The notes under the pieces were generated by a model, which saw only the letters and a list, made by a program, of their open reading frames with translations, was not told the DNA's origin and did no database searches. DNA of 25,629 nt from a virus: positions 1 to 25,629 of the IMG/VR virus record IMGVR_UViG_3300025102_000254; one strand, 5' to 3'. Of the stretch, positions 582 to 23,854 are shown piece by piece (the first letter of the stretch is position 1; each line of letters begins with the position of its first letter). The position numbers and the translations under genes were made by a program.

Positions 582-850
582 TTACTACGCCCTTCTGCAA
601 ATTTGAAATCTCTTTCTTTTTTTACTTCTTTAGGTTTACCATCTAACAAATTTTCTTCTTCTTCTATTCTATGTAGAATTTCAAAAGCATCAAATATTGC
701 TAACTTTTTTGTCGCAGCAGCATTTTTTAGTCTGTCCGCAGACACATCCTCCCCCGTGTCCACAATTGGCTCTTGAGCAACTTTTATCAGTTCTTTTACT
801 GCTAGTTGCCCAGCTTGGATTATACTCTTCTTCGTTTCCTTGACGTTCAT
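578..850 (-). CDS. Conserved small phage protein preceding the terminase (small-terminase candidate)
   Basis: This is a 90-residue, largely helical, charged protein. The core has AGQLAVKELIKVAQE (about 13-27), then DRLKNAAATKKLAIFDAF (39-56) and EILHRIEEEENLL (57-69). I recognise it as a type often found directly before large terminases in marine phages. Position and size would suit a small terminase subunit, but no DNA-binding motif is evident, so that role is inferred. The stop overlaps the terL ATG (ATGA). The start lies inside the gene before it, which runs on for 161 nt in another frame. The regular alanine- and lysine-rich helix pattern argues that this frame is the selected one in the overlap. 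Confidence 0.75.
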   Translation of the reverse strand: MNVKETKKSIIQAGQLAVKELIKVAQEPIVDTGEDVSADRLKNAAATKKLAIFDAFEILHRIEEEENLLDGKPKEVKKERDFKFAEGRSK

Positions 851-1373
851 CTTTCACTAATATATCTTTTGATTTCATACAATACAATAATTCATTGTCT
901 ACCACAAACTCAAACTCTCTATTTTGTTTATAGTAGACAATATCATTTTCTTTTATTCCTAAGGACTTTAAATTAGGATTACCATATCTTAGTATACCTT
1001 TTTGCGTTTGAGTTGCTAAGGGTTTAATAAAACATCTATCTCCTAAAGTATTCCATTTATCATCTTGATAATATAAATATATTTGATCTAATTCTACAAA
1101 ATATTTATTATCCTTAAAATATAACTTACTATTCTTTTCTCGACCTTTCATGTCATAGAATTTCCTAAAGACATTATGATGAATAATAACTATATCTCCT
1201 ACGTTTATATTAGTAATAATGTTTTTAGGTATCTGAGTTACCTTAGCTACTTTATTTACTGCTTTAAACGTTTCTATTTTAGTATTGATGACAAGTTGTT
1301 TATTCCCTACTTTTATAACGTTGTTATATCTTTCTCCAATAGGCTCAACTAGAAATTTATATAAAGCTTGCAT
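690..1373 (-). CDS. Tandem GroES-like fold protein (putative co-chaperonin-related)
   Basis: The 227-residue frame appears to contain two GroES-like beta-barrel units. Unit 1 (about 5-105) shows a FLVEPIGER start, then NINVGDIVIIHH (56-66) and DNKYFVELDQIYLY (88-101). Unit 2 (about 110-174) is closer to GroES: LGDRCFIKPL, GILRYGN, GIKENDIVYYK and LLYCMKSKDILV, matching the GDR-x-x-x-KP, GD-V and final SDIL elements. No clear GGIVL-type mobile loop is seen, so GroEL binding is uncertain. Residues after about 175 overlap the following gene, and their cysteine-rich sequence is probably a by-product of that gene's codons. The start forms a TAATG junction with the gene before it. The fold call is by eye. 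Confidence 0.6.
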   Translation of the reverse strand: MQALYKFLVEPIGERYNNVIKVGNKQLVINTKIETFKAVNKVAKVTQIPKNIITNINVGDIVIIHHNVFRKFYDMKGREKNSKLYFKDNKYFVELDQIYLYYQDDKWNTLGDRCFIKPLATQTQKGILRYGNPNLKSLGIKENDIVYYKQNREFEFVVDNELLYCMKSKDILVKDERQGNEEEYNPSWATSSKRTDKSCSRANCGHGGGCVCGQTKKCCCDKKVSNI

Positions 1374-8338: not shown

Positions 8339-8595
8339 AAAACTATTATAACATCTGACTCTCTTATAACAGAATATATTTTTTTATTTATCTCTAATAG
8401 ATTTTTACTTGCTATATCAAAATATATAGTATCACCTTTTTTAACACCTTTAACATCTGTTCCTATACTTATAACCAAAGCCTCTTGATATCTAATGTCT
8501 TCTCTTTGATTTTTACCTAAAATTAATCCACCTTCTGTTTCTACAGTTGCTGGTTCTATAGGTTGTATTATTATGTAACTACCTATAGCCTTCAT
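8335..8595 (-). CDS. groES: Co-chaperonin GroES
   Basis: The 86-residue protein fits the 10-kDa GroES ring subunit (97 residues in E. coli). It begins [15 protein letters not shown], matching the usual domain opening. The mobile loop includes GGLIL (22-26), the GroEL-binding hydrophobic tripeptide region. VKKGDTIYF (51-59) is the conserved GD strand, and it ends IRESDVIIVL. It would cap the GroEL ring to form the folding chamber. Its ATG overlaps the groEL stop (ATGA), so the pair is co-expressed, but in the order EL-ES, opposite to the usual bacterial groESL operon. Confidence 0.93.
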   Translation of the reverse strand: MKAIGSYIIIQPIEPATVETEGGLILGKNQREDIRYQEALVISIGTDVKGVKKGDTIYFDIASKNLLEINKKIYSVIRESDVIIVL

Positions 8596-10133
8596 ACTCT
8601 TAGGTTATTTATTACACAATCGGTAGATATTATTGTAGTAGCTACAGAAGCCGCGTTTTTTAGTGCGCTTTTAGTAACTAATAAAGGATCTATTATTCCG
8701 GACTTTACCATACTTACCGTTTTACCTGTAACCACATTTATTCCTTTACCATTACCTGTGGGTAAAGATATATTATCTATACCAGCGTTTTTAAGTATTG
8801 TTTCAAATGGAGCACAACAAGCGTCTAATAAAACTTGTTCTCCAACGCTTGTAGCTTTAACATTGCTTGCTGCGTTTAGCAGCGCAATGCCTCCTCCTGG
8901 AACTATACCTTCCTTAATTGCGGCTTTTGTAGCACAAATAGCATCTTCAACTCTATCTTTTTTCTCCTTAAGTTCGACTTCTGAATTAGCACCTACCTTA
9001 ACTATAGCTACTTTTCCACTTAGCCTTGATAATCTTTTTTCGTATCTTAACTTTAAGCTAGTGTTAGCTGTTTCATTTATTTGATTACGTAGCTTTTTTA
9101 TTAAGTCGTTAACTTCTTGAGAAACTTCATCAACTTGAATTATTGTTTCCACTCTATTACTTATAGACTTTTTACATCTACCTAAAGCTTCTGTACTTAT
9201 TAAATCTATATCATCGCCTAGATTTTCGTTTATTACAGTAGAACCTGTAAGTAAAGCTAAGTCATCTAAAACTTCTTTTCTATTAATACCGTGAATAGGA
9301 GCATCTATAATATTTACTTTTATATTACCTTTAACTTTATTCATTGCTAATGCTGTCATCACTTGAGGTTCTACGTCAGCTATTATTAATAAAGATTCTT
9401 TTTCCTTTATAACGTGTTCTAGTATGCTTTGTATTTTTCTAATGTTTTCAATTTTATTATCTAAAATTAAAACTAAAGGATTTTCTAGTTCAGCAGTATC
9501 TTTATCAGTATGTGTTACAAAATGAGAATTCTGATAACCAGCTTCGTATTGTACTCCTTCTATTTTTTCAATAACAGTTTCAGGAGAATCATTAGTCTCC
9601 ATCATCACTATACCTGTTTCGTCAACAGCTTTGAAGGCTTCACTTATTAATTCACCCAACTTTAAATCGTTATTGGCTGATATGGTAGCTACTTGTTTTA
9701 TTTTTTCACCTCGTACTGGTAAGGTTACTTTCTCAAGATAATGCACTACTTTTTCAACAGCCAAATTAATTCCCTCTTTTAATTGTCTTGGTGATTCTGA
9801 TTTTATTTTTTTGTAAGCTTCATTTAATATAGCGTGTGCTAAAACAGTTGCTGTTGTAGTTCCGTCTCCGGCTTCTGTAACTGTTTTTCTAGCCGCTTCT
9901 TTTAAAAGCTTAGCTCCCATGTTTTCTACAGGATCTAAAAGTATTACACTATTAGCAACCGTAACACCATCTTTTGTTATTTGAGGATTGCCACGATCAT
10001 CCTCCATTATAACACATTTTCCACTAGCTCCTAGTGTAGAGCTAACGGCTTTTGTTAACTTCTCTATACCTTCGTATATTTTATTTTTAGCATCATCACC
10101 GAAGTTAAGATGCTTTACTATAGTCTCATTCAT
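8592..10133 (-). CDS. groEL: Chaperonin GroEL
   Basis: The 513-residue protein is a full-length group I chaperonin, close to the usual 540-548 residues. Equatorial ATP-site features are intact: TLGASG (33-38), ITKDGV with Asp55, and [13 protein letters not shown] with Asp90. The later [22 protein letters not shown] block includes the catalytic Asp region matching E. coli Asp398. The C-terminus stops at [10 protein letters not shown] and lacks the GGM repeat tail found in bacterial GroEL. It would fold phage proteins, most plausibly the large capsid and fibre proteins made from the same operon. A plain host-derived copy would be expected to keep the tail; its absence and the compact arrangement suggest long phage residence. 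Confidence 0.96.
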
Positions 10134-17308: not shown

Positions 17309-17410
17309 CACTACACTATTAATATTAATTAATATAACTATGTAAGTTATTGAGAAATCAAGTGTTGAACTATAAACTAATTTTTAACTAATAAACAAAT
17401 ATACACCTTT
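17309..17410. other. Intergenic A/T-rich spacer
   Basis: This is a roughly 100-nt stretch between the copy B hairpin and promoter P4. It is A/T-rich with repeated TAATATTAATTAATAT. No reading frame or convincing structure was found. Confidence 0.5.
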
Positions 17411-17442
17411 ACAAATTAAATACGACACTAAAAAGATAATAT
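17411..17442 (+). promoter_or_regulatory. T7-like promoter P4
   Basis: ACAAATTAAATACGA, 8 bases (CACTAAAA), then AGATAATAT, with the predicted +1 G at 17435. It leads to the 28-residue membrane peptide with a 32-nt leader. Confidence 0.78.
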
Positions 17443-17629: not shown

Positions 17630-17869
17630 ATGAAAACTAATAATTTAACAACAAAAAGATTTGTAATAAGAAAATCTTTAATCGGCGAAAACGCTATCGT
17701 AACTTTTACTAACTCAAAAGGTATAACTTATACTTATGACCATGACGAGATCTACTCTACGTTTCAAGAAAAATTCGAGTCAATGAATTGCTTTCAAGAG
17801 TATAAATCTTACACTAACTCTAATATTGTACCAAAATTCTGCAGAGAATTAGCTACAGTAAGTGAGTAG
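17630..17869 (+). CDS. Early small protein, paralogue of the gene at 16847
   Basis: This is the 79-residue partner of the protein at 16847. It keeps KRFVIRKSLIGENAIVTFTN, YTYDHDEIY, SMNCFQEYKSYTNSN and a longer, more polar C-terminus (KFCRELATVSE). It is beta-rich, with no signal or membrane segment. The two copies have separate promoters and lie about 570 bp apart, consistent with tandem duplication and divergence. The function is unknown. Confidence 0.72.
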   Translation: MKTNNLTTKRFVIRKSLIGENAIVTFTNSKGITYTYDHDEIYSTFQEKFESMNCFQEYKSYTNSNIVPKFCRELATVSE

Positions 17870-17906
17870 TAAACTAAACTCGTCGTTGATCACCATAATT
17901 TAGCGA

Positions 17907-17937
17907 GTATAAATAATACGAACACTTGGTGCAGCAC
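17907..17937 (+). promoter_or_regulatory. Degenerate promoter-like half motif
   Basis: AATACGAACACTT occurs here (TACGA at 17917-17921) with the same core and spacer start as copies P8 and P9, but the AGATAATAT initiation half is replaced by TGCAGCACA. It may be a weak or decayed promoter for the gene at 17957. The stretch before it (17870-17906) has a possible ACTCG/CGAGT stem. Confidence 0.35.
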
Positions 17938-17956
17938 AAACTAATAAATAATAACT

Positions 17957-21073: not shown

Positions 21074-21105
21074 ACAAACTAAAAACGATTACTTATAGAT
21101 AATAT
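21074..21105 (+). promoter_or_regulatory. T7-like promoter P7
   Basis: ACAAACTAAAAACGA (AACGA variant), 8 bases (TTACTTAT), then AGATAATAT, with the predicted +1 G at 21098. The ATG at 21110 follows after a 12-nt leader. Confidence 0.75.
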
Positions 21106-21109
21106 AAAT

Positions 21110-21271
21110 ATGAACGACAAAAATAAAATACAAACAATAAAATTTTATCCAAGCGACAGATCTAAGATAAAATTAGGAAACAAATTATACAAAGGTTATA
21201 CTATAGACAGCATTCCAGACGAGTGTAACTCATGGTTTAATTACAAAGGTTTAACTTTTGTAGTCAACTAA
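21110..21271 (+). CDS. 53-residue hypothetical protein
   Basis: The basic, beta-rich protein (KIQTIKFYPSDRSKIKLGNK, then YTIDSIPDECNSWFNYKG) is the only gene in the P7 unit before the structured RNA region. Its compact strands may make a small barrel. It is not recognised. The stop is 5 nt before the structured RNA stem. Confidence 0.6.
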   Translation: MNDKNKIQTIKFYPSDRSKIKLGNKLYKGYTIDSIPDECNSWFNYKGLTFVVN

Positions 21272-21276
21272 AACAT

Positions 21277-21546
21277 TGACAGGTGAATATGTGTAAGACT
21301 AAGAAGGGCTCGTTTCGAGACAGAAAGCATCATCTGCTATGGCACACCTGTCATACTTAAACCACGACTTCAACCCACCGTGTCGTAGCGGTGAAGAAGA
21401 CAAACAGTGGGGTTGAGTGACGGCTCAACTTGGACAGCGAGGTCAGGTGTATACTGATTAAATGAGGTAAATGTTCGCATAGAAAACCCATCGATGAAGT
21501 TACAGACTGTTCTAGACATGAGAGGTTCGAATCCTCTCTCTCGCTC
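21277..21546 (+). ncRNA. Large structured RNA candidate with tRNA-like T-arm
   Basis: This GC-richer, gene-free region folds into several stems. They are TGACAGGTG (21277-21285)/CACCTGTCA (21345-21353), CACCG/CGGTG (21376-21380/21389-21393), GTTGAG/CTCAAC (21412-21417/21424-21429) as an alternative to CAACCC/GGGTTG, and TCAG/CTGA (21443-21446/21454-21457). The 3-prime end has GAGAGG, loop TTCGAAT, CCTCTC (21520-21538), a perfect T-arm. AGCGAGG (21436-21442) pairs with TCTCGCT (21539-21545) like an acceptor stem, but the gap is 77 nt with no anticodon arm. A tRNA, or a tmRNA with a usual tag (no GCAGCTTAA-type end), is not supported. It may be a stable regulatory or tRNA-mimicking RNA. It lies between the P7 and P8 units. 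Confidence 0.6.
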
Positions 21547-21550
21547 TAAA

Positions 21551-21582
21551 ACAAATTAAATACGAACACTTATAGATAATAT
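21551..21582 (+). promoter_or_regulatory. T7-like promoter P8 (best consensus match)
   Basis: ACAAATTAAATACGA, 8 bases (ACACTTAT), then AGATAATAT, with the predicted +1 G at 21575. Against T7 AATACGACTCACTATAG it keeps AATACGA and TATAG at equal distance. The ATG at 21587 gives a 12-nt leader. Confidence 0.82.
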
Positions 21583-21586
21583 ATGT

Positions 21587-21802
21587 ATGAATAAAATATG
21601 TAAATGTGGCAATGAGATCCACCCAGTAAGAATTAAATATGGTTATAACAATTGTGTAGCATGTTCTACCGTTGAGAAATACGGTTGTGCTCCAATCATT
21701 AATCATAAAACAGGTAATAGTATAGAAATATTGTCTCGAGCAGATGCAAAGCGCATCGCCAAATTAACTAGGCGTAAAGGTTACGGCACAATGCTAAGAT
21801 AA
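21587..21802 (+). CDS. Small zinc-ribbon protein
   Basis: The 71-residue protein has Cys5, Cys7, Cys23 and Cys26 in KICKCGNEIHPVRIKYGY then NNCVACS, a compact treble-clef zinc ribbon in the manner of DksA/TraR-type fingers. A conserved C-terminal part follows: KYGCAPIINHKTGN and RIAKLTRRKGYG. It could bind RNA polymerase or nucleic acid. The CPV-like NHKTGN-x-I-x-x-(L/M)-S pattern is seen in other marine phages. It follows P8 with a 12-nt leader. Confidence 0.72.
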   Translation: MNKICKCGNEIHPVRIKYGYNNCVACSTVEKYGCAPIINHKTGNSIEILSRADAKRIAKLTRRKGYGTMLR

Positions 21803-23756: not shown

Positions 23757-23854
23757 CCACGAATAAGCGCGTGAGGCGAGTAACCGCGGCATTAGGCAAA
23801 GGTATCTTACTCACTTGGCAAGCTCGTACCGTAAATGGTACGGGCTATTCGTGG
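23757..23854 (+). ncRNA. Structured RNA element, copy 1
   Basis: A closing stem joins CCACGAATA (23757-23765) to TATTCGTGG (23846-23854). Inside, AGCTCGTACC (23821-23830) pairs with GGTACGGGCT (23837-23846) around a GTAAAT loop, and GAGTAA (23778-23783) can pair with TTACTC (23807-23812). The closing stem and final hairpin recur at 25556-25603 with compensatory changes. It lies between the genes at 23461 and promoter P10. It has no T-run after it, so a classical intrinsic terminator is not clear. Confidence 0.7.

Follow-up and report, generated by a model that had tools for sequence, protein, structure and literature searches.

Anticodon-less tRNA-like structures in phage gene gaps: a conserved phage RNA and a proposed role in mRNA punctuation

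A stretch of viral DNA of 25,629 nt (IMG/VR record IMGVR_UViG_3300025102_000254; hereafter, the window), from an uncultured, probably marine phage, carries between two of its genes an RNA that, judged from sequence comparison, belongs in elaborate form to a wider class of tRNA-like structures (TLSs) without an anticodon arm, which occur between co-directional genes in many unrelated phages. We propose, with a probability of roughly 0.6, that these TLSs serve as mRNA punctuation and are substrates for host RNase P and RNase Z, cleavage being what we infer from the structure and placement described below. A broader formulation, for which we consider the odds to be about even, is that unrelated tailed phages carry mini tRNA mimics in gene gaps that route polycistronic mRNA to the tRNA-maturation cutting of the host, the family of the window having elaborated on this plan through a covarying 5' domain and a hypervariable arm of possible additional function.

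The ORFs and RNA parts of this paragraph lie on the plus strand. The RNA follows an ORF of 53 residues (MNDKNKIQTIKFYPSDRS...WFNYKGLTFVVN, 21110-21271), which precedes it throughout a family of 17 records, and is followed by a promoter-like repeat at about 21551-21586 and an ORF of 71 residues with a CxCG..CxxC zinc-ribbon-like motif (21587-21802). The same repeat (AAACTAAATACGA...GATAATATA) stands ahead of many genes of these phages, as at 21083-21108, 17403-17430 and in other gaps. As stated in the original prediction, the stretch is gene-free and GC-richer than its surroundings: it holds no plus-strand ORF of at least 60 residues, and the GC content of 0.436 at 21251-21500 is high for the window. 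The predicted T-arm, acceptor-like pairing and 9-bp 5' stem could also all be located. The 5' end is formed by an accessory hairpin (21277-21353), in which the 9-bp stem pairs 21277-21285 with 21345-21353, followed by a 5' arm of stacked helices (CCAC/GTGG, CTTC/GAAG and CACCG/CGGTG; 21362-21410), hairpin A (GTTGAG-TGACGG-CTCAAC; 21412-21429) and the 5' strand of the acceptor-like helix P1 (AGCGAG; 21436-21441). P2 (21442-21507) consists of GTC (21442-21444), an AGGT bulge (21445-21448) that possibly represents a D-loop-like GG, a variable hairpin insert (21449-21504) and GAC (21505-21507). The junction TGTTCTAGACAT (21508-21519), which possibly forms a UGU/ACA mini-hairpin, leads to the T-arm (GAGAGG-TTCGAAT-CCTCTC; 21520-21538). 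The 3' strand of P1 (CTCGCT) and a tRNA-like end, T73-C74-T75-A76 (21545-21548), complete the RNA (21540-21548). Acceptor-like pairing in the window joins AGCGAGG (21436-21442) to TCTCGCT (21539-21545), and the T-arm begins after a gap of 77 nt.

The tRNA features found in this RNA are an acceptor stem and a T-arm with a canonical T-loop; an anticodon arm and a D-arm were not detected by ARAGORN, which reported no tRNA or tmRNA with introns allowed or not, apart from spurious calls at relaxed scores. No Rfam 15 family reached its gathering score for the window RNA or for its relatives L002, L012 and L013, and at E<=10 the window RNA gave a single chance match, leaving the tmRNA model RF00023 unmatched. 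These searches, proposed along with the original prediction, resolved no ordinary tRNA or tmRNA, and a tRNA with an intron and a tmRNA were both rejected. The tag reading frame and the pseudoknots of tmRNA are absent, and in minimal members such as L012 only 3 nt separate AGGT from (G)AC. UUCUAGA was rejected as the anticodon loop of an amber suppressor, as its stem has only 2 bp and it is not retained in the divergent relative L110. The nearest BLAST matches among cultured phages were also discarded, Acinetobacter phage Scipio matching with an ordinary tRNA and Pseudomonas phage vB_PpuM-Roomu-2 with a run of tRNAs bearing anticodon-like arms. The Roomu-2 genome contains unannotated tRNA-like genes with anticodon-like arms at 38978, 39605, 40461 and 40936, inside its tRNA cluster, which are missed by ARAGORN. 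The folding energy of 21265-21550 (-72.1 kcal/mol, z -0.26) is ordinary for the composition and, by itself, gives no support for a structured RNA.

The original observation is settled by conservation and not by folding energy. An exact scan of IMG/VR with the T-arm alone (GAGAGGTTCGAATCCTCTCTC) returned 12 viral contigs, all of which have TGGA(C/A)AGCGAGGT..GGT upstream and ACTGTTCTAGACAT immediately 5' of the T-arm; as these identical flanks lie outside the query, they are more than chance. Further patterns brought the family to 16 IMG/VR phage contigs plus the window, and each of the 17 records has a single strong match to a covariance model (R1). Comparison with relatives, a further check suggested at the outset, located this RNA in 16 other phage contigs with its place among the genes unchanged, either directly after the upstream ORF or, in L004, L007, L010 and L012, one gene beyond it. 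About 60 core positions of the RNA are invariant, whereas identity of the upstream ORF falls to 45-53% in the more distant contigs. Relatives of the upstream 197-residue protein were sought, and none was found. A relaxed pattern (GACGG..TGGANAGCGAGGT) gave 45 extra matches, mostly to one coding sequence (GACGGGAAGATGGACAGCGAGGT, DGKMDSEV), which were judged to be chance, and none of the six matches from a pattern scan of genome contigs was an R1 RNA. For most copies in the 17 contigs, the contig ends no more than about 3.5 kb away, to one or the other side, perhaps because assemblies break at a conserved core amid hypervariable surroundings.

In the alignment of the R1 core, 99.2% of the cells pair, and the covariation score was reached by none of 500 shuffles. 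The two strands of P1 (21436-21441 and 21540-21545) pair in 17/17 members, and hairpin A shows changes on both sides in five of its six pairs around an invariant GACGG loop. All 13 members that have a 5' arm share a similar tiered fold with compensatory changes (CTTC/GAAG becomes CTGC/GCAG, among other forms). The junction is invariant in the 17 records, and the T-loop also occurs as TTCGACT. The P2 insert, between AGCGAGGTC-AGGT and GAC-TGTTCTAGACAT, ranges from 3 to 71 nt and is mostly unrelated among contigs, yet its ends are complementary (136 vs 63.3 +/- 8.6 in shuffles), indicating that it is a hairpin extending P2. Acceptor and T-stem hardly vary within the family, and for this reason their support is taken from the wider class. 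The idea of a single RNA of about 270 nt holds in part: the conserved core spans only 21409-21546, the 5' arm occurs in 13 of 17 members, and the accessory 5' hairpin is confined to four contigs, with near-identical copies of that of the window only in L015, L072 and L075. A switch between CAACCC/GGGTTG and GTTGAG/CTCAAC, also suggested originally, did not survive the comparison; the latter pairing is supported by covariation, and the former is fully formed in no more than 2 of 12 sequences, those of the window and L018. The alternative partner proposed for CACCTG likewise exists only in the few phages with the accessory hairpin.

Relatives of the upstream ORF define 53 loci, and these led to the wider class. 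One of them, L110, has a divergent R1 RNA (E 5e-9) in which the junction has changed from UGUUCUAGACA to UGCUGCAGCA, with the UGY..RCA mini-hairpin preserved as UGC/GCA. Many of the 53 loci carry other anticodon-less structures, some of just 44 nt. The minimal TLS of about this length has an acceptor of 6-7 bp, a short AAUGGUU-type loop (e.g. AAUGGUUGGAC) and a T-arm of 6 bp. A pattern that fixed the loop and the T-loop and left the acceptor free (AATGGTTNNNNGNGNGGTTCGANTC) matched 39 contigs, and among 33 distinct matches the acceptor paired at 5.76 positions on average, vs 1.50 with partners swapped (the top of 2000 swaps being 2.08). An alignment of 24 mini-TLSs scored 0.919 for covariation vs 0.215 for shuffles; most of these were selected by a scan that required pairing, so the partner-swap test is the unbiased one. 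The mini-TLS model (R2, 45 positions) matches only the T-arm part of the window RNA (16.9 bits, E 0.25), the larger middle being a misfit. The window RNA shows the features of the class, namely an acceptor and T-arm stack of 12-13 layers, as in a tRNA, without an anticodon arm, an intergenic position on the coding strand, and the 3' end T-C-T-A. Comparison of relatives, covariation and class-wide acceptor pairing thus bear out the original suggestion of a tRNA-mimicking RNA without an anticodon arm. In a scan without a positive control, which makes its count uninformative, R2 had matches in 0/199 bacterial genomes from the phylum of the genome of L067 (a Bacillota MAG). Searches of the open-access literature found no prior description of phage elements of the TLS type, and within that scope a TLS class in phage gene gaps is undescribed.

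The original alternative of an aberrant tmRNA-like RNA does not apply to the window RNA, which the tmRNA model leaves unmatched, but it does describe two sister loci. L117 matches the Rfam tmRNA model over the tRNA-like domain with 60.6 bits (gathering score 47), and L115 does so with 36.6 bits, below that threshold. These regions (L117 4977-5057, L115 4292-4367) look like messenger-less tmRNA-like RNAs, about 300 model positions being missing between the matched tmRNA ends. Both have G3.U70 and A73, of alanine identity, and G3.U70 is absent from the window acceptor in either numbering. Alanylation was rejected as a general function, G3.U70 being restricted to this tmRNA-like subset, and general charging is unlikely, no identity set being common to the acceptors. 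These sister RNAs could also be taken to suggest that the processed RNA acts in trans as a stable tRNA mimic, a decoy for EF-Tu, SmpB, a tRNA-modifying enzyme or a tRNA-cutting defence nuclease. The R1 RNA is indeed single-copy, elaborate and far better conserved than its neighbours, and an arms race would suit the hypervariable P2 arm. Against such a decoy, which would need no fixed position and which we consider unlikely, are the up to 12 TLS copies per phage, each at a gene gap with a hairpin and start codon after it, and again the lack of a common identity set.

The TLS 3' end resembles a discriminator base followed by CCA minus its second C. Across 59 distinct non-tRNA TLSs, with numbering set to give 12 stem layers in total, the end reads N73-C74-(not C)-A76, with C74 in 56/59, C75 in 2/59 and A76 in 45/59; the scan imposed no 3'-end bases, although TLSs from within one phage group do not count as independent. 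C74 occurs in 18/18 TLSs of the phage group of the window, 27/29 of other IMG/VR phages and 11/12 of cultured actinophages. Numbering by 12 layers is a choice, and under 13 layers the same C would be N73.

L156 and L183 each contain five TLSs in successive gene gaps, laid out as stop codon, TLS, hairpin, AGGAG-like site and a start about 38-44 nt on (one L156 case is without a called start nearby). A BLAST search revealed TLSs in the cultured mycobacteriophages Indlulamithi and Send513, for which the right-hand 41.5 kb of each was counted. There, 12/20 (Indlulamithi) and 11/16 (Send513) of the gaps of 70-300 nt hold a TLS, mostly in the order stop, TLS, hairpin, ribosome site, start. In each phage the coding strand has 15 T-arms and the opposite one 0, and in neither phage does more than one lie well within an annotated gene. 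In four groups, stem-loops immediately 3' of the TLS reach significance (Stouffer z -5.1, -6.6, -8.4 and -9.3), and all TLS copies of one phage lie on one strand. The same scan of T7, lambda and TM4 25000-52000 detected no TLS, and R2 gave no convincing match in these sequences (the best, in T7, having 17 bits and E 0.24).

In Indlulamithi and Send513 the T-arm mostly ends 42-53 nt ahead of the start codon, with a stem-loop between. This spacing would also suit an uncut cis element that protects mRNA 3' ends or that supports the following gene as a ribosome standby or a translation element. Such a role would leave the 12-13-layer stack and the tRNA-like 3' end (C74, no C75) unexplained, and it fits poorly with the window and several relatives, where the RNA is followed by the promoter-like repeat and not by a start codon; we regard it as improbable. 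An element acting at the DNA level, such as a recombination or attachment site derived from the 3' end of a tRNA gene, or an aid to gene shuffling, was considered as well, as tRNA 3' ends are frequent in phage attachment sites and flanks that align can either enclose a mini-TLS or lack it cleanly (at about 17930-17950 of the window vs L088 and L089). No integrase match was present among the window proteins searched. Moreover, compensatory stem changes, complementary insert ends and strict coding-strand orientation require an RNA, so that this last explanation is strongly disfavoured and very improbable.

Other observations concern further parts of the window. A possible H-type pseudoknot (ACTCG/CGAGT, CACCA/TGGTG) at 17878-17941 follows the gene at 17630-17869; its relatives share this layout, with covarying stems, and continue into a 44-nt mini-TLS, which is cleanly absent from the window. 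A likely structured RNA at 23757-23854, before a promoter-like repeat, has a 9-bp stem (CCACGAATA/TATTCGTGG) enclosing a hairpin (GCTCGTACC-GTAAAT-GGTACGGGC), and similar elements (CTCATAC..GTATGGGCTTTTCGTGGT) occur after a KGYTI-type ORF in L080-L107, at the place of the TLS RNA of the window. An RNA module, ACCGCGGC-GNRA-like-GCAAAGGT, recurs at about 23783-23804 of the window, in the P2 insert of L007, and in L105, L115 and L116. In addition, genes at 8592-10133 and 690-1373 (minus strand) of the window encode, respectively, a GroEL-like chaperonin, of which the closest matches (about 41% identity) include Bacteroides and Flavobacterium phages, and a protein whose N-terminal part is GroES-like.

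In the proposed punctuation, host RNase P would recognise the TLS shape on the 5' side, and RNase Z, or another tRNA 3'-end nuclease like it, on the 3' side, so that a polycistronic phage transcript would be cut at each TLS. Such a cut would free the upstream mRNA and create a new 5' end on the downstream mRNA, which would often carry a protective stem-loop. In nine relatives of the window ATG follows the acceptor end directly (CTATG), and the AUG would thus come just after the acceptor stem; in L004, L007, L010 and L012 a hairpin (AGATTTAC-ACGAG-GTAAATCT) follows instead. Given the repeat after it, the window RNA would mainly set the 3' end of the upstream mRNA. RNase Z is blocked by a complete CCA, and omission of C75 would permit 3' cutting; keeping C74 and avoiding C75 may thus retain a contact with RNase P RNA without a finished CCA. 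A 3' RCCA contact is part of RNase P recognition, and this enzyme cuts phage M3 RNA, C4 RNA, T4 gene 32 mRNA, pre-tmRNA and plant-virus TLSs (PMC11143913). Several findings speak against punctuation. The encoded TLS 3' end is without the full RCCA preferred by RNase P, some gaps in the same phages have no TLS, and in the window the two genes are already set apart by the promoter-like repeat. R1 also shows an acceptor and T-stem more nearly invariant than pure shape recognition needs and, single per phage with an elaborate 5' domain and invariant core, may have an extra partner.

Should cleavage be confirmed, phages would use tRNA punctuation, so far mainly mitochondrial, with stripped-down mimics. 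The unexplained gaps of about 90 nt in cultured mycobacteriophage genomes would then have a function, a new class of RNase P/RNase Z substrates would have been overlooked by tRNA finders, and short processing modules would become available for operon building. Laboratory phages and their host, Send513 or Indlulamithi on M. smegmatis mc2155, would allow a direct test.

Among known systems, the tRNA-like domain of tmRNA (RF00023) shares with the TLSs an acceptor and T-arm, a D-loop without a normal arm and the absence of an anticodon. Like the window RNA, tmRNA has a side helix where P2 sits, and it is a known RNase P substrate; the window RNA differs in having no tag ORF, pseudoknot ring, G3.U70 or model match, and in lying between genes. 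The extended start-associated sequences (ESAS) of cluster K mycobacteriophages, also structured and unexplained, likewise precede start codons in gene gaps, but they are 17-bp imperfect inverted repeats with a short spacer (PMC3203893), and their identity with TLSs was rejected, no TLS being found in TM4 25000-52000. Plant RNA virus TLSs and mascRNA/menRNA are tRNA-mimicking RNase P substrates (PMC11143913, PMC11693755) of another build, located at the 3' ends of RNA-virus genomes or in one long non-coding RNA. The P1/P7 C4 antisense RNA, M3 RNA and T4 gene 32 mRNA are phage transcripts cut by host RNase P (PMC11143913), set apart by their descriptions as single cases and not a repeated gene-gap cassette. 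Finally, mitochondrial tRNA punctuation also places tRNA-shaped units between genes, and RNase P and RNase Z release the mRNAs, as we infer for the TLSs; the units there are real tRNAs, whereas those of the phages dispense with the anticodon arm.
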